A stretch of 64,000 nt of DNA from Pseudonocardia asaccharolytica DSM 44247 = NBRC 16224 (GTDB taxonomy: Bacteria > Actinomycetota > Actinomycetes > Mycobacteriales > Pseudonocardiaceae), in contig NZ_AUII01000019.1 in assembly GCF_000423625.1 (NCBI RefSeq), positions 1-64,000 on the forward strand, written 5' to 3'. The notes beneath the pieces were generated by a model, which saw only the letters and a program-made list of their open reading frames with translations, did no database searches and was not told the origin of the DNA. Position 1 is the first letter of the stretch. Each line of letters starts with the position of its first letter. The position numbers were made by a program, and so were the translations under genes. Shown in pieces: positions 11,316-31,463 of this stretch.

Positions 11316-12038
11316 GCTGGGAGGTGCAGCCGACAATCCGTTCCCGGCGCCGAACACGATCTCGCGCAGCTGGTGGCGGGTGCGCTCGATGTGCTCGCGC
11401 ATCGCGTCGGCCGCGGCGTCCGGGTCGCCATCCCGTACGGCGTTGTAGATCTGTTGGTGGTCCCGTCGGGACTCTTCGACAGGATCCACGTAAGGGAGCA
11501 GGTCGTGGGGGCTGAACAGCTCGCCTCGAACGGACTCGACCGCGGCTTCGAGTCGGACGTTGCGCGCCGCCCGGGCCAGCCCGCGGTGGAACTGGGAGTC
11601 GGCGAGCCGGAACGCGGCGTGGCCGCTGCCGACCTCGCCGAGCTTCGCGATGGCGGCCCGCAGCGTCGCGAGATCCGCGCGGTCCCGGCGGATCGCGGCC
11701 AGGCGGGCAGCGTCGGTCTCCAGCGCGATGCGGAAGTCAATCATGTCGTCGAACTCGCCGGCCTGAGTCCGCATCCGCATCCGCCACTTCTCGAGTGGCT
11801 CGGTCAGCTCGGTGACGTAGGTGCCGCCGAGCGCTCCTCGGCGGACCGTCACGTAGCCGTGCTGCTGCAGGATCTTGATCGCTTCCCGCACGCTGATCCG
11901 GGCGACCCCGAGCTGTTCGGCAAGCTCGCGCTCGGCGGGCAGCCGATCGCCGGGGCCGACCTCGCCGTGATGGATCAGAGTGCGGAGATGCTCGGCCACG
12001 GCCTGGGTCAACGTCTGTGCGGTGACCACGCGGACCAT
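11298..12038 (-). CDS. GntR-family regulator, FadR subfamily
   Basis: 246 residues. An N-terminal winged helix-turn-helix (TLTQAVAEHLRTLI, PGDRLPAERELAEQLGVARISVREAIKILQQHGYV) is followed by an FCD-type all-helical effector domain (FRIALETDAARLAA, FHRGLARAARN, DHQQIYNAVRDGDPDAAADAMREHIE). It probably controls the neighbouring glxBCD-glnT unit: a fragment of a second copy of this gene lies just upstream of intact glxB, and the divergent side of this gene holds the pseudogene copy of the same unit. The ligand is not visible. Confidence 0.9.
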   Translation of the reverse strand: MVRVVTAQTLTQAVAEHLRTLIHHGEVGPGDRLPAERELAEQLGVARISVREAIKILQQHGYVTVRRGALGGTYVTELTEPLEKWRMRMRTQAGEFDDMIDFRIALETDAARLAAIRRDRADLATLRAAIAKLGEVGSGHAAFRLADSQFHRGLARAARNVRLEAAVESVRGELFSPHDLLPYVDPVEESRRDHQQIYNAVRDGDPDAAADAMREHIERTRHQLREIVFGAGNGLSAAPPSDVMAP

Positions 12039-12200
12039 CGTCCGAGGCTATACCCCGCGCCGGATGGCCAGCGGTCTCGCCGCCGGTCAGAAGAGGCCTC
12101 ACAGGCCACGCAGGCAGGGCCGAATGGAGTAGCCATCGAATCTTTCGCCGGCGACCAGTCGGGCTAGTCGGGACCGGCTGAGTCTCGCGCCTCGGCAGCC

Positions 12201-12229
12201 TTGACATACACGCCGGCCAGGAGTCGGAT
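12201..12229 (+). promoter_or_regulatory. Relic promoter element matching the one upstream of glxB
   Basis: TTGACA, then a 17-bp spacer (TACACGCCGGCCAGGAG), then TCGGAT. The same block (TTGACA, 17 bp, TCGTAT) stands upstream of the intact glxB. The following AAAGTCCT-ATGTC-CAGATCTT is a decayed form of the perfect palindrome found there. It now precedes only the pseudogene scar and possibly the urease operon. Confidence 0.5.
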
Positions 12230-12280
12230 GAAAAGTCCTATGTCCAGATCTTGAGCCGACCTGCACTTGAGGTGGGACGG

Positions 12281-12410
12281 ATGTGTGGGATCGTCGGGAC
12301 TGCATCTGAAGAACGCCGAGCGGCATCCGCGACTTGGGAAGCCGCTGGTGCCGATGCTCGACGGCATGTCGAGCCGGGGACCGCACAGCGCAGGGGTGGC
12401 TGCACGACGG
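12281..12410 (+). pseudogene. 5' remnant of a glxB-like glutamine amidotransferase
   Basis: Begins MCGIVG, with the nucleophile Cys2, and matches the start of the intact glxB nearly base for base. An extra A after the sixth codon puts it out of frame (GGGACTGCATCTGAAG against GGGCTGCACCTGAAG). Homology continues through the region encoding MLDxMxSRGPxSAGV and LHDG, then switches abruptly to glnT sequence. It cannot make a functional amidotransferase. Confidence 0.85.
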
Positions 12411-12755
12411 CGACGACGCCTACCGGCTCCGGCTGCCCAAGACGCCCTACTCCTACGTCGGTGGGCTGATGGCGCACGCGCCGGCGATGAGCGCGGTGGC
12501 CTGCCCGACGGCGAACTCCTACAAACGGATCGGGGTGGGGGCACCGCTGTCCGGGTCGACGTGGGCTCCGGCATACGTGGCCTACGGCGGCAACAACCGC
12601 AGCCTCATGCTCCGGGCGCCCGATGCTGGCCGGGTCGAACACCGCGAGATCGACCGGTCGGCGAACTACGCCGACCCGTCAAGCACGCCGAGTTCGACGC
12701 CTACCACACCACCGAGTCCGAGTGGGAGATCGACCATTATCTCACGCTCATGTGA
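12411..12755 (+). pseudogene. 3' remnant of a glnT-like glutamine synthetase
   Basis: Matches the C-terminal part of the intact gln[42 protein letters not shown], and [11 protein letters not shown]. It then skips roughly 80 codons and ends in a different frame with [24 protein letters not shown]-stop, equal to the glnT C-terminus. The N-terminal two thirds, including the Glu metal ligands, are gone. Direct fusion to the glxB remnant shows that the whole middle of an ancestral glxB-glxC-glxD-glnT unit was deleted. Confidence 0.85.
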
Positions 12756-12810
12756 GCCGAGCGGGCCCGGAGCGTCCGAGAGACAAAGATCAATAAAAAG
12801 GAGGCGCGTC

Positions 12811-13503
12811 GTGCTACTCACTCCGACTGAGCTTGAGCGACTGACGATCTTCACAGCTGCCGAGCTTGCACGCAAGCGGAGGGAGAGGGGGTTAAAGCTC
12901 AACCACCCTGAAGCGGTCGCAATCATCGTTGACGAGGTGATGGAAAGGGCACGCGAGGGCAAGTCGGTCGCCGAGCTCATTTCCTACGGCTCAACCATTC
13001 TCACCACCGACGACGTCATGCCAGGCGTCGCCGAACTCATGCCCTTCCTACAGGTCGAACCGGTACTGAAGACGGGCACGAAACTCGTCACGATCCACGA
13101 GCCCATTCGCGCAGGAAAAGAGAAGGTTGAGCGCGTCGAACCCGGGGAGATCGCGACGGAGGAAGGTGAGATCGAGATCAACGCTGGACGGCGCACCACA
13201 AAGGTTACGGTAGTCAACACCGGAGACCGCCCGGTCCAAGTCGGCAGCCACTTCCACTTCTTCGAAGCGAACCGCGAACTGGAATTCGATCGCGAAAAGA
13301 GCTTTGGTATGCACCTCGATGTTCCGGCGGGGACAGCCAAGCGTTTCGCGCCCGGTGAGCACGTCGAGGTGACGCTGGTCGAGTTTGGTGGCACCGGCGA
13401 GGTGTGGGGACTGAACAATCTGACAAACGGTTCCGTCCGGAGCGAGGCAACGAAGAAACTTGCGATCGAGCGGGCCCGCCAACATGGTTTTAAGGGGGCG
13501 TGA
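12811..13503 (+). CDS. ureAB: Urease gamma-beta fusion subunit (UreAB)
   Basis: 230 residues. Residues 1 to about 100 are the gamma subunit ([49 protein letters not shown]); the rest is the beta subunit ([53 protein letters not shown]). Fused gamma-beta subunits are known from Helicobacter and from some actinobacteria. The GTG start was chosen for the strong AAAAGGAGG six bases upstream. The frame runs back in phase into the glnT remnant, but that sequence is a scar. Base composition is more A/T-rich than the neighbours, suggesting transfer. Confidence 0.95.
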
Positions 13504-20982: not shown

Positions 20983-22335
20983 ATGGACGATGGGCGCGAC
21001 GATCTGAGGGCACGCGCGCGGGAGGACGGGATCGAGTTCTTCCTCGCCCTGTTCGTCGACATGCACGGCAAGCCGTGCGCGAAGGCCGTGCCGATGGCCA
21101 GCTTCGACCTGCTCATGGACGGCGGCGCCGGGTTCGCCGGGTTCGCCGCGGGCGCCATCGGCCAGAGCCCCGCGGATCCGGACCTGACGGCGATGCCCGA
21201 CCCGGCGTCCTACACCCGGGTGCCGTGGAAGGAGGGGGTCGCCGTGCTGCACTGCGACCCCTATGTGGGCGGCGAGCCGTGGCCGTACGCCCCGCGGGTG
21301 ATCCTCAAACGCCGGCTCGCCGCGCTGGCCGCCGACCGCGGCTGGACGTTCATGACCGGCGTCGAGGCCGAGTACTCGCTGCTGCGGCGCGCCCCGGACG
21401 GGAGGCTCGAGCTCGCCGACACCCTGGACTCGGCCGCGAAGCCCTGCTACGAGGTCAAGGGCCTGACCCGGATGTGGGACTTCCTTTCCACCCTGTCGCG
21501 GCACATGAACACGCTCGGCTGGGGCAACTACGCCAACGACCACGAGGACGGCAACGGCCAGTTCGAGAGCAACTTCGTCTACTCCGACGCCGTCACCACC
21601 GCGGACCGGACGATCTTCTTCCGGTACATGGTGCACATGCTGGCCCACGACTCCGGCATGACCGCGACCTTCATGCCCAAGCCGTTCGGATCGGTGACCG
21701 GCAACGGCATGCACATCCACCAGAGCCTGTGGACCCTCGATGGCACGCCGCTGTTCCGCGACGACAGCGACCCGCTCGGGCTGTCCAAGACGGCCTACTC
21801 CTATATCGGCGGGCTGCTGGACCACGGGCGGGCGCTCGCGGGGGTGATCTGCCCGACGGTGAACTCCTACAAGCGGATCGGGGTGGGCGCGCCGACCTCC
21901 GGGTCGACGTGGGCGCCGGCGTATGTGGCCTACGGCGGCAACAACCGCAGCCTCATGCTGCGGGTGCCCGAGGGCGGCCGGGTGGAACACCGCGGGGTCG
22001 ACGGGTCGGCGAACCCGTACCTGGCCTCGGCGGTCCTGCTCGCCGCGGGCCTGGACGGCATCGCCCGCGGACTCCATCCCGGTGAGCAGGTGACCGACGA
22101 CCTGTTCGCGCTACCCGCCGAGGAGGTGGCCCACCGGGGCATCGTGGCGCTCCCGAAGACCCTCGACCGGGCGCTGGAGGAGCTGGTCAGAGACGGTGTG
22201 CTGCGCGCGGCGCTGGGGCGGGTACCCGGCGGCGACTACCTCGACTACTTCACCGCCGTGAAACAGGCTGAGTTCGACGCCTACCACGCCGCGGTGTCCG
22301 ACTGGGAGATCGAGCGCTATCTCACGCTCATGTGA
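20983..22335 (+). CDS. GlnT/GmaS-type glutamine synthetase-like ligase
   Basis: 450 residues. Glutamine synthetase fold of the GlnT class: [61 protein letters not shown] and SANPYLASAVLLAAGLDG. Members of this class make gamma-glutamylmethylamide (GmaS), gamma-glutamylisopropylamide (IpuC) or glutamine. Linkage to GlxBCD and to two dimethylformamidases favours an amine substrate, but this is inference. Its 3' end overlaps the convergent methylase-like gene by 8 bp. A truncated second copy lies upstream of the urease genes. Confidence 0.88.
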   Translation: MDDGRDDLRARAREDGIEFFLALFVDMHGKPCAKAVPMASFDLLMDGGAGFAGFAAGAIGQSPADPDLTAMPDPASYTRVPWKEGVAVLHCDPYVGGEPWPYAPRVILKRRLAALAADRGWTFMTGVEAEYSLLRRAPDGRLELADTLDSAAKPCYEVKGLTRMWDFLSTLSRHMNTLGWGNYANDHEDGNGQFESNFVYSDAVTTADRTIFFRYMVHMLAHDSGMTATFMPKPFGSVTGNGMHIHQSLWTLDGTPLFRDDSDPLGLSKTAYSYIGGLLDHGRALAGVICPTVNSYKRIGVGAPTSGSTWAPAYVAYGGNNRSLMLRVPEGGRVEHRGVDGSANPYLASAVLLAAGLDGIARGLHPGEQVTDDLFALPAEEVAHRGIVALPKTLDRALEELVRDGVLRAALGRVPGGDYLDYFTAVKQAEFDAYHAAVSDWEIERYLTLM

Positions 22336-23038
22336 ACCCGCGGGGGTGGGACGTGGAGCAGCCGGCGACGGGCCGCAGCGCGGCGAGCAGCGCATCGGTG
22401 CGCCGCCGGTCGGGGGTCAGGGAGCCGACGAGCGGTGCGCCGGCCGGCGCGGGGCCGAGGCCGATCAGCAGCCGGCCCGAGCCGCTGTCGGGCACGAAGA
22501 TCCCCCGCGGCAGCTCCAGCAGCAGGTGCGGCGCGAGCCCGAACCGGTCGAGGTTCGCGAACGCGGTGCCGGGGCCGGGACGCATGACGAACCCGGGGCC
22601 GACGATGAACAGCCCGATCCCGTCCGGAACCAGCCGTGAGCAGGCCTGCAGCAACGCGACGTTGGCCGGGTCCTCGGTCAGGACCACAGGGCCGTCGGCC
22701 GTCTCGACCGGGATCCGCCGGGGCTGCCACCGCCATGGCGGGCAGCCGAGCACGACGTCGACGCCGGGTTCCAGGGTGGCCGCGACCGCGCGTGCGTCGT
22801 CGACGCGCCACACGATCCGGTCGGGCGGGGCGAGCCGCCCGCCGAGCGCGGCGCGGCGCGCGTCGGGCACCACACCGATCGCCCGCGCCGGCCGCAACTC
22901 CGCCACCAGCCGTGGGAGCATCCACCCGGCCGCGGCCCACAGGTCGACGACCGTTCGCGGCGGGCCCGAGCGCGCGCGCAGGTACGCACAGACGAAGTCG
23001 GGGATGAAGCAGGGGAGCTCACCGGCCGCGGGCCGCAT
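22328..23038 (-). CDS. N6-DNA-methylase-like protein with degraded motifs
   Basis: 236 residues. The layout resembles HsdM-type adenine methylases: an N-terminal PDFVCAYLRA, a Rossmann start VVDLWAAAGWMLPRLV (residues 30-45) where DxACGSG would normally be, DVVLGCPPWRW (98-104) in place of the NPPF/Y catalytic motif, and a closing LLLELPRGIFVPDSGSGRLLIGL. The SAM glycine motif and the N/D-PP-Y motif are both altered, so activity is doubtful. Seven bases after the Rieske-like gene, hence last in the first dmf operon. Function unknown. Confidence 0.6.
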   Translation of the reverse strand: MRPAAGELPCFIPDFVCAYLRARSGPPRTVVDLWAAAGWMLPRLVAELRPARAIGVVPDARRAALGGRLAPPDRIVWRVDDARAVAATLEPGVDVVLGCPPWRWQPRRIPVETADGPVVLTEDPANVALLQACSRLVPDGIGLFIVGPGFVMRPGPGTAFANLDRFGLAPHLLLELPRGIFVPDSGSGRLLIGLGPAPAGAPLVGSLTPDRRRTDALLAALRPVAGCSTSHPRGFT

Positions 23039-23045
23039 CCGCGGC

Positions 23046-24011
23046 TCACCCGCCCAGCAGGCTGCGCGCGTGGGTGAGGATCGGCGAGCCGTCGCCCATC
23101 CGCGCGCTGCGCGAGCGGGCGCGCGCCTCCCGGGCGACCGCCCGCCACCCCGCCGCGAGGGCGGCCGCCTCCTCGTCGGCGCCCTCCTCGACGACGCCCC
23201 CGGCCGCGTCCCCGCGGCGCGCGAACAGCGAGATCACGAGCGCCACCCCGTCGATCCGCGTCGGCTTCACCACGACGGTGGCCGCGTGGTCGGGCGCGCA
23301 CACGAGGACCACGTTCGGGAAGGCCCGCCACAACCGGACCCCGCCGTCGTCCGGCGCGAGCGGCGCGCCCGCGTCCGCGGCCCGCGGCCGGCCGCGCATC
23401 GTGCCCGGTACGTCGGTGCCCGCGGCCAGGCGCTCCACGAGCCGCCCACTGCGCGGCGGCGCGCCCAGCGCCTCGAACAGCGCGTCGCCGGCCAGCTTCC
23501 AGTTGCAGTCGAGCTCGGCCCAGAACCGTGCGACGTGCCGGAGCCCGCCGAGGGCCGCGGCGGCCGCGCCCAGCGCGCCGAGTTGCTCCTCCAGCGGCGG
23601 CGGATCGGCGAGCGTCACGAAGATCAGCGGGCCCACCGTCCGCACCGGCACGTCCGCGAGCTTCTGCGGGTTGAAGCCGATGAACTGGCGCATCTGCCGG
23701 GTGGGCACGCCGTCGTCGGCGGCAACGGCATCGGTGTCGAGCGAGTGGGCGCACGAGACGTACGGGCAGTTCGTCTTGTGGCCGTGCCCGCACTGGGCGG
23801 GGATGGTCCAGCAGGAGCCGTACTGGAGCACGTTGAACCCCGCCCGCAACCCGCCGTCGGGTCCGCGCTGCACGTGCAGACCGTGATGCCCGACGGTGGC
23901 GGGCAGGAGATCACCGAGGCCGGGGATCTGCTGTTCCACCCCGACGCACACCCACGCCCGGGTCCAGATGCGTTCGTCCTCCAGCGCGAGCTCGCGCAGG
24001 GCGGCTGACAT
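23046..24011 (-). CDS. Rieske oxygenase alpha-subunit-like protein lacking most metal ligands
   Basis: 321 residues. The fold pattern matches aromatic-ring-hydroxylating oxygenase alpha subunits: IWTRAWVCVGVEQQIPGLGDLL, GFNVLQYGS, NCPYVSCAHSLDTD, IGFNPQKL, GPLIFVTLAD and LDCNWKLAGDALFE. The Rieske ligands expected as CxH and CxxH are Leu62, Tyr64, Cys82 and Val85; only the Cys remains. The YH of the mononuclear iron site is LG (182-183). The frame is open and well coded, so it looks like a maintained pseudoenzyme. ATG with GGAGGT upstream, 22 bp after dmfA2. Confidence 0.78.
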   Translation of the reverse strand: MSAALRELALEDERIWTRAWVCVGVEQQIPGLGDLLPATVGHHGLHVQRGPDGGLRAGFNVLQYGSCWTIPAQCGHGHKTNCPYVSCAHSLDTDAVAADDGVPTRQMRQFIGFNPQKLADVPVRTVGPLIFVTLADPPPLEEQLGALGAAAAALGGLRHVARFWAELDCNWKLAGDALFEALGAPPRSGRLVERLAAGTDVPGTMRGRPRAADAGAPLAPDDGGVRLWRAFPNVVLVCAPDHAATVVVKPTRIDGVALVISLFARRGDAAGGVVEEGADEEAAALAAGWRAVAREARARSRSARMGDGSPILTHARSLLGG

Positions 24012-24033: not shown

Positions 24034-26463
24034 CTAGGAACCCTTCGGCGCCAGCGCGTCGATGCGCCTGCGGTTCAGCTCCGGGTCGTAGGCCAGCCGG
24101 CCGCGGTGCAGCACGGCGTCGGAGGGCGGGTCGGGCAGCGGCCCGTCCTGCATGAACCGGTCGAGCACGTTCTTCGTCAGCCGGGAGATGTTGTTGTCGT
24201 AGTTGTTGTGCGACAGCGAGCCGCAGTAGGCGATCGAGCTGAACGCGAAGCAGGCGCCGCCGCCCGGGGTCTCGTGGTAGGCGATATCGGCCCGCACCCG
24301 CGGATGTTCGGTGCCGGTGAGGCCGGCCTGGTTGAACCCGAAGTCCTCCATCACGAGCAAGTAGCCGTCGGTGTGGCGGCCCGCGGAGGTGGCGACGAGC
24401 AGGGTGTGCGGCGGCGAGCCGAGCGAGGTGTCGACGATGTCCAGTTCGGTTCCCGCGGCGCCGCCGCCGACCAGCCCGAAGTCGCCGAGGCGCTCGTCGT
24501 AGCCGATGCCCTCGAACGCCCAGGACACCCGCGGGTCGTTCGACTCCGGCGTGCGCGTGTAGTACGAGCCGATGTCGAACCCTTCGCTCGACATGCCGGT
24601 CCCGGCGACGGAGTGCAGATAACGGCCGACGTAGCGCCACATCCCGCCGAGCTGGCCGTTGGACTGGTGGTGGTACTCGCCGGGGTCGGCGCGCCAGGTG
24701 CGGATGCCGGACTCGCAGCGGCGCATCTCGGTGACCTCGCCGCGGCCGTAGGCCGGGTGGAAGGTGTGGATCCAGTAGAAGCCGTCGGCGCCCATGTACA
24801 TGAAGCGCCCGCCGCGCTGCTTGTAGGCGTGGATCGCGTCGAGGTAGTTGGCGTCCTTGTGCTCGGGGTGGCTGCCGGTGATGAGGACGTTGTAGCCCTC
24901 GATCCGTTCCAGCCCGTCGTAGCTGATGTCCTCGTCGGCGATGACGTCGAACTCGTACCCCAGCTCGGTCAGCCAGTCGATGAGATGCAGGTCGGCGGGG
25001 AACTGCCACGGCGCCTGCATGAGGAAGTGGTCGTACTTCGGCCGGAACGACAGCACCGGCCGCAGCCGCGAGGACAGGCACAGCCCGCTCACGTCGGTGT
25101 GGGTGTCATAGATCGACCCGCCGTACTCCCGGTGCTCGGCCAGGAACATGTTCTGCGCCTGCAGGATCGGGATCCGGTAGACGAGCAGCTCGGCGCCGGC
25201 CGCGTTGGCCGCCAGATGCTCGTTGGCGTACGCCATGTAGTCGATCGTCGACATGATGACGCCGATCTTGGCGGTGCAGACCCCGAGCGGCGGGCGGACG
25301 AAGAACGGAACGTAGTCCTCGTCGCCGTCCTCCGAGGTGAGCTTGACGGCGTACACCGCGCTGCGCAGGTCCTCGGGGACCGGGAACTCGAAGTCGACGT
25401 CCCAGCGGGCGTCGTCGAGGTCGTCGTCGTGGAAGTGGATCGCGCCGTACTCCTGGGGGGCGTGCTGCCAGTTGGTCTCGACGCCGCGCCAGTTGTGGCC
25501 TGTCATGGCCCGGGTCGGCAGGTTCACCACCTCGCCGTGCAGTCGGTAGGGCCCCTTGTCGACGGCGGTGCGGGTGGGGATGCCCTCGGAGAAGTCCCAG
25601 GAGGCCACGAGGCAGGTCGACAGCTCGCCGGTCGGGCCCGGCCCGCGGCGCTCGTCGAGCTCGGGGCGCGCCCCCAGCTTCATCGTCTCGATCTCCATGC
25701 GACTCAGCGCCCGGTTGCACAGCCGGGGGCTGTCGATCTTGCCGTTGTAGTCGCCGCCCAGGATCACGCCGGGCACCGGGGACGTGCTCCCGGCCGGGCC
25801 CTCGTCGCGACGCTCCGCGTAGCCGGCCATGACCAGCGGCACGTCGGAATGCTCGATCCTCGTGTCCAGCGTCGCCTCCACGGGCTCGATCACGGGATCG
25901 AGCGCGTAGCGGATCTGTGGCTCGTGGTAGAGCACGGCCCGGCCCGATTCGGCGTCGAACGTCGCGGCCACGAAGTGCCACGCGTGGTCGCGCACGGGCA
26001 CGCCGGTGGTGAGCCGTTCGCCGTTGATCCGCAGCTCGAGCGCGCCGTTCTCGTCGAGGAACAGGCCGTAGCCGCGGTCGTCCGACCATTTCGCGATCAG
26101 CGCCTGCGGCCCCGGCTTCCAGTAGCCCTCGACCTTCGTCGGCATCGTCGGCCAGATCCAGCACTGCAGCGTGAAGCCGGCCACCCGCAGCGGACGGCGG
26201 TCCGCGACGACCACGTGCGAGCCGCTGTGGATGACCTGCCTGCGGCCGTCGTGGCGGCCGTTGAACGGCGCGTCGAGCGGAACCTCCTTGAACCCCGGGC
26301 CCGCGGGATTGGTGTCCCCGTGGATCAGCCGCACCAGCTGGGCGTCGTAGGCGGCGGGCCCGTCGCAGTTGACGAAGAAGCGGATCGGGTCCCCCTGCTG
26401 CACGGACCACTTGTCGCCGTAGGCGGTGATCCGCATCCAGGCCGTGCCGTTGCCGCTGCTCAT
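24034..26463 (-). CDS. dmfA2: N,N-dimethylformamidase large subunit, divergent copy
   Basis: Hydrolyses DMF to dimethylamine and formate in characterised homologues. 809 residues, longer than the classical enzyme (about 762). The iron site described for the Paracoccus enzyme, two Tyr and one Glu, maps to Tyr412 (YMAYANEH), Tyr452 (SIYDTHTD) and Glu534 (GSHPEH). An N-terminal beta-rich LamG-like region (WIWPTMP, DENGALELRINGERL) precedes the catalytic part. Strong GAGGAG before the ATG. Follows the small subunit gene by 48 bp. Confidence 0.9.
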   Translation of the reverse strand: MSSGNGTAWMRITAYGDKWSVQQGDPIRFFVNCDGPAAYDAQLVRLIHGDTNPAGPGFKEVPLDAPFNGRHDGRRQVIHSGSHVVVADRRPLRVAGFTLQCWIWPTMPTKVEGYWKPGPQALIAKWSDDRGYGLFLDENGALELRINGERLTTGVPVRDHAWHFVAATFDAESGRAVLYHEPQIRYALDPVIEPVEATLDTRIEHSDVPLVMAGYAERRDEGPAGSTSPVPGVILGGDYNGKIDSPRLCNRALSRMEIETMKLGARPELDERRGPGPTGELSTCLVASWDFSEGIPTRTAVDKGPYRLHGEVVNLPTRAMTGHNWRGVETNWQHAPQEYGAIHFHDDDLDDARWDVDFEFPVPEDLRSAVYAVKLTSEDGDEDYVPFFVRPPLGVCTAKIGVIMSTIDYMAYANEHLAANAAGAELLVYRIPILQAQNMFLAEHREYGGSIYDTHTDVSGLCLSSRLRPVLSFRPKYDHFLMQAPWQFPADLHLIDWLTELGYEFDVIADEDISYDGLERIEGYNVLITGSHPEHKDANYLDAIHAYKQRGGRFMYMGADGFYWIHTFHPAYGRGEVTEMRRCESGIRTWRADPGEYHHQSNGQLGGMWRYVGRYLHSVAGTGMSSEGFDIGSYYTRTPESNDPRVSWAFEGIGYDERLGDFGLVGGGAAGTELDIVDTSLGSPPHTLLVATSAGRHTDGYLLVMEDFGFNQAGLTGTEHPRVRADIAYHETPGGGACFAFSSIAYCGSLSHNNYDNNISRLTKNVLDRFMQDGPLPDPPSDAVLHRGRLAYDPELNRRRIDALAPKGS

Positions 26464-26511: not shown

Positions 26512-26961
26512 TCAGGTGACCGCCCAGTTGTCGTCGTGGCGCTTCCAGCCCTCGTGGAAGTCCTCCGGCATCCCGTCGGTCTCGGGGTACTGGTCCAGCC
26601 GCAGCAGGAAGATGTCGTGCTGGATCTCGTTCTCGTCGGTGTAGACCGTGTCGTTGACGAACTCCGGCGGCCTGCCGCGCACCCCGGTGAGCCTGCCGAT
26701 CCGCCACTGCCGCTCCACCTCGGTGCAGATGACGACGTACTTGCCGCCGTGGGCGCCCGGCTGCATCGCGCGCATGCGCACGAGCACCTTGGCGAGGTCC
26801 ATCTGCTCGTGGATGCCGCCGTGCGGCTCGATCGCGCTGCCCTGCCGCTCGGTGCGCAGGATCGAGCATCCGGCCACGCCCTTCATGTCGTCGATACACG
26901 CCCGGTGCTCGGCGATCATCCGGGCGCGCGCCTCGCTGTCCCGTGTCGGGATGGGGAACAT
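26512..26961 (-). CDS. dmfA1: N,N-dimethylformamidase small subunit, divergent copy
   Basis: 149 residues, about 17 longer than the classical small subunit. Recognised from position directly before the large subunit and from blocks shared with the second copy: a charged helical N-terminus with EARARMIAEHRACIDDMKG, then KYVVICTEVERQWRIGRLTG (compare KYILVCTRPHEEWRIAEITG in the other copy) and PPEFVNDTVYTDENEIQHDIF. First gene of the operon, with GGAGGGAGG upstream of the ATG. Confidence 0.82.
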   Translation of the reverse strand: MFPIPTRDSEARARMIAEHRACIDDMKGVAGCSILRTERQGSAIEPHGGIHEQMDLAKVLVRMRAMQPGAHGGKYVVICTEVERQWRIGRLTGVRGRPPEFVNDTVYTDENEIQHDIFLLRLDQYPETDGMPEDFHEGWKRHDDNWAVT

Positions 26962-28462: not shown

Positions 28463-30757
28463 TCAGCTGTCCGAGGCCGTCGCTCCGGCGGGGACGGGCT
28501 CGTCGCGCAGGAACCGGTCGAGGACGTTCCTGGTCAGCCGCGAGACGTTGTCGTCGTAGTTGTTGTGCGACAACGACCCGCAGTAGGCGATCGAGCTGGC
28601 CGACCAGACTGCGCCACCACCCGGCGTCGGGAAGTACGTGATGTCCGCCCGGACCTGGCCGCTCTGGCTGCCGCCCACCCCCGGTACGTTGAAGAACAGC
28701 TCCTCGAGCACCTCCAGGTAGATGTCGGTGTGGTTCTCGGAGACCGCACCGATGACGGTCTCCGGGGGCGTGCCCAGCGCCGTGTCGACGATGTCGAGCT
28801 CAAGCCCGGCGGCCCCGCCGCCGACGAGCCCGAAGTCGCCGATCTTCTCGTCCGGGTCGATGCCGTCGAACATCCACGCGGCCGGACCCCCGTCCCGGGC
28901 GTCCCCGGCAAGGCGGTAGTAGGACGAGACGTCGAACCCCTCGGCCCCGAAGCCGACCCCGACGAGCCGCTGCGGCGCGCGTCCGCGATGCCGCCACAGC
29001 GTGCCGTACTCCCCGGTGAACGACAGGTGGTACTCGCCGGGCGCGCACCGCCAGGCATTGGAGCCGTGCCCCTTGCGCACCTCGATGACGTTGCGGTCCT
29101 CGGGGTCGTAGTTGATCACCCAGTAGAAGCCGTTCGCGCCGAGATACATCAGGCGACCGCCGGAGCTCACGTACTGGTGCACGGCGTCGAGCATCTGCTC
29201 GGAGTAGTACTCCGGATGCGAGCCGGTCAGGACGACCTGGTAGGGCGCGAGCACGTCGACGCCCTCGTGGTGCAGGTCCTCGTCGGTCACGACGTCGAAC
29301 TCGTAGCCGAGCTGGGTCAGCCAGTCGATGAGGTGCAGATCGGCGTTGAACTGCCACAACGACGGCGACAGCCAGTGCCGGAAACCGGGCCGCATGTTCA
29401 GGATCGGCCGCAGCCGGGTCGAGTAGGCCACCCCCGAGCCGTCGGCGTGGATGTCGTAGGTCGACAACCCGAACTCGCGGTGCTCGCTGAGCACGATGTT
29501 GCGCTGGTCGAGGACCGGGTTGCGCGCGACGAACAGCTGGGCCAGCGGCGCCCAGAGGGTCACGTGGTCGTTGGCGTAGGCCATGTAGCTCGCCGTCGGC
29601 GCGAGGAACACGATCTTCTTCTCCGCGCCGCGCGGCGCCCGCACATAGAACGGCACGTGGTCGACGTCGTCGTCGGCCCGCAGCCGCGCCGCGTACAGCC
29701 CCGACGGCAGATCGTCGGGGACGGTCAGGGTGAAGTCGACGTCCCAGCAGGCGTCGGTCAGGTCGTCGTCGTGGAAATGGATCGCGCCGTACTGCTCGGG
29801 GACGTGGATGAAGTTCTGCTCCGTGGCCCGCCAGTTGTAGCCGGTCATCCCCCGGGCCGGACCGTTCCACGCCCGGCCGTGCAACCGGTTGCGGGAGACG
29901 TCGGTGACCTGGCGGGTGTGGGCGACACCGTGGTCGGTGATCTCCTCCTGGAAGTCCCATGCGGCCACGAGATCGGTTCCGCGCGGGGTCTGCACGGCCC
30001 CCTCGGCCCGTTCCGGACCGAGGGCGACGGCGTGGACGCGCGGACGGTCGAGCTTGCCGTTGAAGTGGCCGCCGATGACCTGACGGGAGTCCTCGCCGGC
30101 CGGCGTCTCGACATATCCGGCCATCACGAACGGGACCGCGAGCCCGTCCGGCGCGCGGACCGGGCACGCCTCGGTGACGGTCGCGGTCGTGCTCTCCCAC
30201 GAGGTGGCGAAGGCGAACCTGCTGTTCGTGACCGTGACGACCGGGGTCTGGCTGACGGTCAGGGCGCCGTCGGCGTCCTGGGAGGCCACGGCCAGATACC
30301 AGACACCGGCCAGCAGCGGCACGCCGGCGCTGGTGCGCTGGGTGTTCCCGGCGCCGTCGCCCACCCAGACCTGCAGCGCCCCGTCCTCGCCGATGAACAG
30401 GCCGTGCCCCGCCTCGCGCGAGGCGTCCCATTTGGTCAGCAGGCCCTGGACGCCGCCGCGCGGCGTCGTGGGCGCCACCGTGACCTGCAGCGTCCACTGC
30501 GCGCCGGGACGCAGCTTGGGGTGATCGGGCACCTCGACATGGGATCCGCTGACGACGCGCTGGACCCGGCCGGGGAAGTCGGCGTCGATACCGGTCTGCA
30601 CCGGCTCGATCTTCTCCCCCGGCCCGTCGGGGTTGGTGTCGCCGTGGATGAGCCGGACGATGTCGGCGTGGTAGCGCTCGGTGTCGCAGCTGACCAGAAA
30701 GTCGACGTCCTGGCCGGGAAAGACCGACAGCTGCCTGCTGTAGCCGATGACCTTCAT
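28463..30757 (-). CDS. dmfA2: N,N-dimethylformamidase large subunit, canonical-length copy
   Basis: 764 residues, very near the classical 762. The iron-site residues map to Tyr394 (YMAYANDH), Tyr434 (STYDIHADG) and Glu516 (GSHPEYY). Shared blocks with the other copy include RLIHGDTNPDGPG, EQYGAIHFHDDDL, LIDWLTQLGYEFDV, GGRLMYLGANGFYW, GDFGLVGGGAAGLELDIVDT and SSIAYCGSLSHNNYDDNVSRLTRNVLDRF. The ATG overlaps the small subunit stop (ATGA). Elsewhere the two copies differ widely, so the duplication is old or they were acquired separately. Confidence 0.93.
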   Translation of the reverse strand: MKVIGYSRQLSVFPGQDVDFLVSCDTERYHADIVRLIHGDTNPDGPGEKIEPVQTGIDADFPGRVQRVVSGSHVEVPDHPKLRPGAQWTLQVTVAPTTPRGGVQGLLTKWDASREAGHGLFIGEDGALQVWVGDGAGNTQRTSAGVPLLAGVWYLAVASQDADGALTVSQTPVVTVTNSRFAFATSWESTTATVTEACPVRAPDGLAVPFVMAGYVETPAGEDSRQVIGGHFNGKLDRPRVHAVALGPERAEGAVQTPRGTDLVAAWDFQEEITDHGVAHTRQVTDVSRNRLHGRAWNGPARGMTGYNWRATEQNFIHVPEQYGAIHFHDDDLTDACWDVDFTLTVPDDLPSGLYAARLRADDDVDHVPFYVRAPRGAEKKIVFLAPTASYMAYANDHVTLWAPLAQLFVARNPVLDQRNIVLSEHREFGLSTYDIHADGSGVAYSTRLRPILNMRPGFRHWLSPSLWQFNADLHLIDWLTQLGYEFDVVTDEDLHHEGVDVLAPYQVVLTGSHPEYYSEQMLDAVHQYVSSGGRLMYLGANGFYWVINYDPEDRNVIEVRKGHGSNAWRCAPGEYHLSFTGEYGTLWRHRGRAPQRLVGVGFGAEGFDVSSYYRLAGDARDGGPAAWMFDGIDPDEKIGDFGLVGGGAAGLELDIVDTALGTPPETVIGAVSENHTDIYLEVLEELFFNVPGVGGSQSGQVRADITYFPTPGGGAVWSASSIAYCGSLSHNNYDDNVSRLTRNVLDRFLRDEPVPAGATASDS

Positions 30758-31149
30758 GCCGAGGCCTCCTCGCCGCCGGTCAGCCCGTTGTCCCGAAGCC
30801 GCTTGCGGAAGATCGCGTGCTCGGCCTCGAACCGGTCGGTGAAAGTGTCGTCGAGGAGCGTCGGAGGCTGGTCCGGCTCGCCGGTGATCTCGGCGATGCG
30901 CCATTCCTCATGCGGCCTGGTGCAGACCAGGATGTACTTCCCCTTCATCACCAGCTGGTTCTTGCGCAGATAGGTGAGCACCCGCTCCAGGTCGTCGCTG
31001 TGCTTGCCGATGGGAGTGGCGCGGTGCTCCTCGATGATCTCCGCGGTGACCCGCGGAGCGATCTCGGTCTCGAAGATGTGCTTCTCGACCTGGCGGTAGG
31101 CGGCGTGTGCCCTGGCGTTCTGCTCCTCGAGCGAGGGAAGGCGTGCCAC
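30754..31149 (-). CDS. dmfA1: N,N-dimethylformamidase small subunit, canonical-length copy
   Basis: 131 residues, matching the classical small subunit (about 132). Contains EEHRATPIGKHSDDLERVLTYLRKN, MKGKYILVCTRPHEEWRIAEITGEPDQPP and DRFEAEHAIFRKRLRD. The GTG was chosen for GAGGAG six bases upstream; earlier in-frame sequence looks non-coding. Translationally coupled to its large subunit. Confidence 0.88.
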   Translation of the reverse strand: MARLPSLEEQNARAHAAYRQVEKHIFETEIAPRVTAEIIEEHRATPIGKHSDDLERVLTYLRKNQLVMKGKYILVCTRPHEEWRIAEITGEPDQPPTLLDDTFTDRFEAEHAIFRKRLRDNGLTGGEEASA

Positions 31150-31463
31150 GAGGTCTCCTCTGGTCGTCTTCTCGCGGGGCACGGGCCACGGCCGTCGCGG
31201 GCACCCCGCGAAAATGATGTGCGTCACTGCCAGGGCGTCGACGCTAGCCCCACCCCGGGCGCTGCCCAAGGGGCGCGCACACCAGTCCGCGTCCGGTCGG
31301 GGGGCCTTGACTACACAGGGTGGCGCAACGCCCGGGCCGGCGTGCGACGTACACCCGATCCACGCGGACGTTCGGGTGATGAGCCACGCCGGAGCGCACC
31401 GTCAGCGCGGAAACGATCGTTGGCCCTCGCGACGAGTCGAGTGTCGGAAGGAGGGCCACGCGA
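31150..31463. promoter_or_regulatory. Divergent intergenic region between second dmf operon and PBP
   Basis: 314 bp. The left side must hold the promoter of the canonical dmfA1A2 genes and the right side that of the penicillin-binding protein gene, whose GTG is preceded by GGAAGGAGGGCC. A lower-GC patch (AAAATGATGTGCGTCAC) sits about 65 bp upstream of dmfA1. I see no gene and no clear palindrome. Confidence 0.4.

Follow-up and report, generated by a model that had tools for sequence, protein, structure and literature searches.

The enzyme encoded at the locus analyzed here belongs to the family of the dimethylformamidase (DMFase) DmfA1A2 of Paracoccus (PDB 6lvb; pAMI2), a mononuclear-iron amidohydrolase of the 2-Tyr-1-Glu type. 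A figure legend calls Asn547 of this enzyme essential, and the portion of the text available describes no Asn547 mutant (PMC7686228). According to the same portion, the canonical DMFase made recombinantly in E. coli performs like the native enzyme; hence, a helper is not a general requirement of this enzyme type, and any need for an additional protein would have to be specific to a particular clade. Another relative of DmfA2, with a different substrate, is the N-acetyl-(R)-beta-phenylalanine acylase of PDB entries 8i5a and 8huy (the depositors' name), on which our literature search found no paper.

The second family of relevance comprises the alpha subunits of Rieske oxygenases, which combine a 2Cys-2His Rieske set with an HxxxxH site for mononuclear iron. 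A Rieske fold that is free of ligands and serves as a non-catalytic partner exists in NirD, the small subunit of assimilatory nitrite reductase, which consists of the Rieske domain alone.

We analyzed a window of 64,000 nucleotides (contig NZ_AUII01000019.1 of Pseudonocardia asaccharolytica DSM 44247, positions 1 to 64,000) in which a dmfA1-dmfA2 pair is followed on the minus strand by a gene for a protein that resembles a Rieske oxygenase alpha subunit. This gene is denoted psR, a working name given in this analysis. The order on the minus strand is dmfA1, dmfA2, psR and a gene for a 236-aa protein:

26512..26961, minus strand: dmfA1, small subunit, 149 aa; homologs in 79 of the best 80 of 104 related loci
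24034..26463, minus strand: dmfA2 of the psR-linked clade, the partner gene, 809 aa, PF20254
24020..24024, minus strand: GGAGG, resembling a ribosome-binding site, 8 nt ahead of the start codon (ATG) of psR (read from the sequence)
23046..24011, minus strand: psR, 321-aa protein that resembles a Rieske oxygenase alpha subunit but has neither the Rieske nor the mononuclear-iron ligands (ORF, alignment, model)
22328..23038, minus strand: 236-aa protein without a family match, 7 nt after psR

The psR frame is intact (321 codons, start at 24011, according to the ORF list and the sequence), and 22 nt separate it from the dmfA2 stop at 24034. A first-pass annotation of this DNA had described an intact frame with a good ribosome site 22 bp after dmfA2, all of which is borne out; the minus strand was absent from that description. 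A relative of the 236-aa protein also follows psR in G051, a genome of the same genus, and in Mycobacterium sp. 141, which are the other actinobacterial loci reaching that far. These relatives (75% identity in G051 and 37-41% in Mycobacterium sp. 141) were found only there among the fetched loci. The 236-aa protein carries a CPPW and a DLWAAAG stretch resembling a worn SAM motif; it may be another degenerate enzyme, derived from a methyltransferase.

The descent of psR can be traced by both sequence and predicted structure. Pfam assigns it to PF00848 alone (6e-8), its NCBIfam matches are limited to oxygenase families and fall far below the cutoff, and its sequence descent from Rieske oxygenase alpha subunits shows in a profile match of 3.7e-13. 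In a model (mean pLDDT 80.4, pTM 0.82) for which 80 aligned sequences served as input, the oxygenase alpha fold is complete (Foldseek 7e-14), and VIA-align matches it to terephthalate dioxygenase (Z 19.1, 253 residues, 3.2 A) and stachydrine demethylase (Z 19.0, 258 residues, 3.6 A). For terephthalate dioxygenase (7q04), stachydrine demethylase (4qup) and the carnitine monooxygenase CntA (6y8s), the likeness extends over the entire fold, with Z of 18.2-19.1 and 244-258 of the 321 residues matched; there is also a sequence relation, which includes GbcA, and the NWK and PN motifs are shared. Model confidence is low just where the cysteine loops lie (residues 61-90 average about 54). The residues that in the oxygenases hold the two iron sites, and the cysteines found in their vicinity, map as follows:

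23757..23828, minus strand: former Rieske boxes Leu62-x-Tyr64 ... Cys82-x2-Val85 (alignment to HcaE 8k0a)
23751..23813, minus strand: invariant four-cysteine motif C67-x6-C74-x7-C82-x4-C87 (82 of 82 sequences; coordinates computed from the ORF start)
23448..23468, minus strand: former mononuclear-iron motif (YHxxxxH place), residues 182-188, LGAPPRS

The alignment of psR with HcaE (PDB 8k0a) is gapless across the Rieske motif: Leu62 takes the place of a Cys, Tyr64 and Val85 each that of a His, and the fourth ligand, Cys82, is retained. After NWK, the place of YHxxxxH reads LGAPPRS. The first-pass annotation had named these three Rieske replacements, with only Cys82 staying, as well as LG in place of the YH of the mononuclear iron site, and was correct on both. 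Across 82 psR sequences (79 loci, the window, G051 and Paracoccus aminophilus pAMI5, with near-copies included), former ligand position 62 is Ala in 74 and position 85 Thr in 75, and Tyr64 is peculiar to the window copy, 79 of the 82 having His there. None of the 82 has the Rieske ligand set C-x-H ... C-x2-H, and the psR rows show no YH...H pair at the HxxxxH place after NWK, so an active Rieske oxygenase can be rejected; homologs with full ligands at the same position being absent (0 of 82), the pseudoenzyme reading is not refuted. For comparison, 55 loci yielded 40 distinct canonical oxygenases that were counted and 7 with a longer Rieske spacing, the rest being duplicates; HxxxxH is present in all 40 that were counted, and the Rieske motif in every non-psR relative scanned (26 in one set, 40 distinct plus 7 with the longer spacing in another, the sets overlapping). 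The alignments and the model together show that psR derives from a Rieske oxygenase alpha subunit, with the fold predicted to be kept and both iron sites lost.

Unlike the alpha subunits, psR has four invariant cysteines in another arrangement and a short, variable C half; unlike NirD, it retains the whole oxygenase alpha fold in addition to these cysteines. C67, C74, C82 and C87 are invariant in 82 of 82 sequences (consensus QHGGCRxVPLQCQTGxKTxCSFTSCGYSRDR), as is His46, with His43 present in 81 and His64, the His of Rieske box 1, in 79. Canonical oxygenases have Cys at the three gained positions in 3, 9 and 0 of 40 cases. The first-pass annotation had suggested that a remaining CGH...CAH set might bind a different metal. 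Its cysteines, C74 and C87, proved invariant in all 82 sequences, and its histidines vary, with His at H76 in 2 of 82 and at H89 in 24 of 82, so the set as written was rejected. The candidate metal set consists of the four cysteines, joined by His64 in most members; His64 cannot be essential because it is lost in the three actinobacterial copies.

Nei-Gojobori omega values for 17 pairs range from 0.03 to 0.34 in the Rieske-like half of psR and from 0.15 to 0.59 in the rest; for the pair formed by the window and G051, they are 0.20 in the Rieske-like half and 0.59 in the C half, with 0.18 for dmfA2. With one exception among the 82, the extracted psR stretches measure 308-417 aa. The remodelled half is thus constrained, whereas the former catalytic half drifts in both length and sequence. 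Plain decay of an ex-oxygenase gene nearing loss, or a sequence error, could be suspected from the G051 copy, whose available sequence breaks the frame near residue 30, and from the C-half omega of the actinobacterial pair. This reading has next to no probability and was rejected: the losses are identical and the four cysteines present in 82 of 82 sequences, and the omega of the Rieske-like half is far below 1. Relaxed selection, which the first-pass annotation had named as the sign of decay, is contradicted by purifying selection in that half, though the C half is under weak constraint between the window and G051. Conservation across the family excludes chance and sequence error.

A scan with DmfA2 only, psR not being used, over one genome per species (84,980 species) yielded 104 confirmed loci, of which the best 80 were retained by closeness to the window-type DmfA2 clade. 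Among these best 80 of 104, psR lies directly downstream of dmfA2 in 79, and in the remaining locus (L103) the contig ends inside dmfA2; the gap, measured to the first ATG or GTG, has a median of 65 bp and ranges from -4 to 165. The best 80 of 104 loci belong to alpha-, beta- and gammaproteobacteria, Mycobacterium sp. 141 and a Modestobacter MAG. The genera represented include Methyloversatilis, Methylobacterium, Hyphomicrobium, Xanthobacter and Methylopila, which are genera of methylotrophs. When loci were instead fetched by the psR profile, psR adjoined dmfA2 in 15 of 15.

The genome surveys gave the same picture. Of 385 alphaproteobacterial genomes, 5, including the survey's centre genome, encode psR (E below 1e-130), and the next matches to the psR profile start at 1e-35; the 25 of these that were fetched are all canonical Rieske oxygenases. 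A DmfA2 relative is present in 64 of the 385 genomes, and the five in which it is at least 66% identical are exactly the five psR genomes; the other 59 have only DmfA2 relatives of at most 53% identity and no psR. Within the genus, 21 of 62 genomes have DmfA2 relatives, and only the window genome and G051 combine the close type with psR, the 19 further genomes holding only relatives of at most 49%. In a sample of 394 Actinomycetes genomes, which probably does not include G051, psR was found in the window's own genome only. The psR surveys (394 Actinomycetes and 385 alphaproteobacteria) scored five first-look candidates per genome, and the DmfA2 survey two; a contig scan with a two-row psR alignment found no relative.

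G051 shows the same order of dmfA1, dmfA2, psR and the 236-aa protein as the window, with 76% identity between the psR proteins. On pAMI5 of P. aminophilus, dmfA1, dmfA2 and psR (40% identity) are followed by genes for a 108-aa protein and an AmiS/UreI channel; the DMFase locus of pAMI2 has no psR. The pAMI5 psR (L023, 13878-14858) is annotated as 'biphenyl 2,3-dioxygenase', likely a misannotation, as it is without the ligands of either iron site. The distance matrices of psR and DmfA2 are correlated (r 0.85, reached by 0 of 1000 permutations; same nearest neighbor in 53 of 82 cases), as expected for co-inherited genes. Collectively, psR directly follows dmfA2 of one clade wherever it was found and read. 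The earlier suggestion of a retained non-oxygenase tied to a special type of DmfA2 is thereby supported (79 of the best 80 of 104 loci; 5 of 385 genomes).

We compared the partner proteins of this clade with other DmfA2 relatives, after excluding matches of fewer than 380 residues. The resulting 89 psR-linked rows count the window twice, some genomes twice and near-copies, and the 55 other rows are those from fetched loci. The iron ligands and the accompanying His (Y412, Y452, E534 and H532, the positions of Tyr399, Tyr440, Glu521 and His519 of the DMFase) are kept in all 89 linked rows and in all 55 others. In contrast, the position of Asn547 of parDMFase is Asp in 89 of 89 linked rows and Asn in 53 of the 55 others. 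In the window, this residue maps as follows:

24784..24786, minus strand: codon for Asp560 of DmfA2, in the place of active-site Asn547 of parDMFase

In a FastTree tree of 76 DmfA2 sequences (29 of the 89 linked and 47 of the 55 others), the linked sequences fall on one side of a branch that has a support of 100; its stem measures 0.62, and there are several long branches in other places of the tree. The psR-linked proteins are thus set apart from the DMFase both by the Asn-to-Asp change and as a separate clade with a long stem. The two other rows with the same Asp (L165 and L166), from 1.4-Mb genomes, stand beside flotillin and rhodopsin genes (family names confirmed for one of the two) and lack psR within the 16 kb read, which weakens the notion that this Asp needs psR. 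Where an Asn-to-Asp DmfA2 without psR is encoded in loci L210 and L211 (genomes G845 and G923), the surroundings with flotillin and rhodopsin genes (by Pfam, for L210) resemble the gene cluster in the available text of PMC10308929.

The first-pass annotation had offered an assembly factor, a regulator or an extra subunit as possible roles. We propose, at what we consider an even chance, that psR serves one DmfA1-DmfA2 clade as a dedicated partner or as a maturation factor, its Rieske loops having been remade as a cysteine metal site. The four cysteines, together with His64 in most members, would bind a metal, either as a re-ligated Fe-S cluster or as a single Fe or Zn. The protein would dock on DmfA2 and help to load or protect its 2-Tyr-1-Glu iron site, the surroundings of which are changed by the replacement of Asn with Asp. 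The DmfA1A2 enzyme of this clade would hydrolyze a small amide or urea-type compound, possibly DMF, with the products entering methylamine, ammonia and formate metabolism.

The strict adjacency and the co-distribution with the DmfA2 clade, along with the retention of the whole oxygenase fold, would also fit psR as a permanent third structural subunit, with the cysteines merely bracing the remodelled loop in the manner of a structural zinc site. Canonical DmfA2 already requires a small subunit for activity, according to the available text (PMC7686228). However, the strong variation of the C half, in both length (308-417 aa in all but one of 82) and omega (0.15-0.59), is unlike what tight packing would produce, and we consider such a structural role unlikely, if still worth serious attention. 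It is also conceivable that a new Fe-S cluster in psR feeds the DmfA2 iron, so that the enzyme would catalyze redox chemistry (oxidative demethylation, for example) in place of hydrolysis. The ancestors of psR carried electrons to a mononuclear iron, the new cysteines are situated in the cluster loops, the iron surroundings of the partner are altered, and genes for a FAD/2Fe-2S protein of the sarcosine-oxidase-alpha type are neighbors in 6 of 82 stretches. Nevertheless, DmfA2 retains all the iron ligands of the hydrolase, and no dedicated oxygenase-type reductase or ferredoxin was recognized among the annotated recurrent neighbors, several rarer ones being without a family match, so that electron transfer appears distinctly improbable.

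The neighborhood of the related operons bears on the substrate of the clade for which we propose psR as a dedicated partner. We counted a gene as present when tblastn gave a match at 1e-4 in the stretch covering 8 kb on each side, or less at contig ends. Among the best 80 of 104 loci, in addition to dmfA1 (79), these stretches encode a Sel1-repeat protein (76), a 102-aa protein without a family match (78), a Peripla_BP_5 binding protein (66) and the matching permeases and ATPases (62-67), with all transporter components in 53, and more rarely the urease subunit UreC (23) and a GmaS-like synthetase (4). The Sel1-repeat and approximately 102-aa proteins (11553-12242 and 12247-12561 of L079 and equivalents) come after psR where this region was read, and the small one occurs on pAMI5 too. 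Urease accessory genes recur near related operons. The window encodes urease at lower coordinates on the plus strand, together with a set of three genes that resembles N-methylglutamate synthase and a glutamine synthetase of type III (TIGR03105); a transporter of the Peripla_BP_5 type was not found in the window. Taken together, these genes are consistent with a small amide or urea-type compound being imported and hydrolyzed.

The uptake genes of the related loci could also fit a sensor or regulator that responds to substrate, iron or redox state and is encoded with the enzyme by happenstance; fixed cysteines are common in redox and metal sensors. We regard this possibility as improbable, given that separate regulators are available (PucR-type by the window operon, two-component beside pAMI5 and other loci, AmiR-type in 9 of 82 stretches) and that scans of psR proteins revealed no DNA-binding domain. 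The AmiR/ANTAR-type regulator genes (5378-6001 of L060, 911-1546 of L073 and others), of which the one in L060 adjoins the binding-protein gene, are hints of amide-sensing control.

As for DMF itself, the published data on Paracoccus, as far as the available texts go, point both ways. Dziewit et al. 2015 (PMC4543880) report that DMF cannot be used by P. aminophilus lacking pAMI2 and that no link between the pAMI5 genes and DMF use has been established. By contrast, P. sulfuroxidans DM175A1-1 grows on DMF, with chromosomal dmfA1 and dmfA2 reported, their type unstated (PMC11381386), and in the genome of P. sulfuroxidans CGMCC 1.5364 the single DmfA2 relative is the psR-linked one. On this evidence from P. 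sulfuroxidans, we gave up the view that the substrate is probably not DMF. The substrate of the clade is thus unsettled, DMF being neither shown nor excluded, and the first-pass label 'dimethylformamidase operon' is unproven.

Within our literature search, which covered few subscription papers, we met no accessory protein for 2-Tyr-1-Glu iron amidohydrolases and no paper joining DMFase with Rieske proteins; the search on ligand-free Rieske folds, NirD and Rieske pseudoenzymes returned nothing on point, and the available parts of the DMFase and Paracoccus literature (PMC4543880, PMC11381386 and PMC7686228) do not mention psR. If the proposed role is true, psR would be such an accessory protein, and its Rieske fold would have been re-ligated rather than just emptied. 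The full combination, namely a Rieske alpha subunit that has lost both iron sites, carries in its cluster loops a four-Cys (or three-Cys plus His) metal or Fe-S center, and acts as the obligate partner of an unrelated mononuclear-iron amidohydrolase clade in an operon spread across several bacterial classes, is to our mind slightly short of an even proposition. psR marks a distinct, uncharacterized DmfA2 clade that databases file under dimethylformamidase, with psR itself labelled as a dioxygenase on pAMI5; NCBIfam gives no match for DmfA2 or the 102-aa protein.

Finally, some further features of the window deserve mention. A second dmfA1-dmfA2 pair is located at 28463-31269 on the minus strand. 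The DmfA2 encoded there shares about 47-50% identity with the first, carries the usual Asn at the position in the active site and is without its own psR. In G051, a similar second pair adjoins the operon. A piece of the glutamine-synthetase catalytic domain, at about 12400-12666 on the plus strand, shares one frame with urease gamma and beta (ORF 12334-13503), and a full glutamine-synthetase-like gene is present at 20983-22335.
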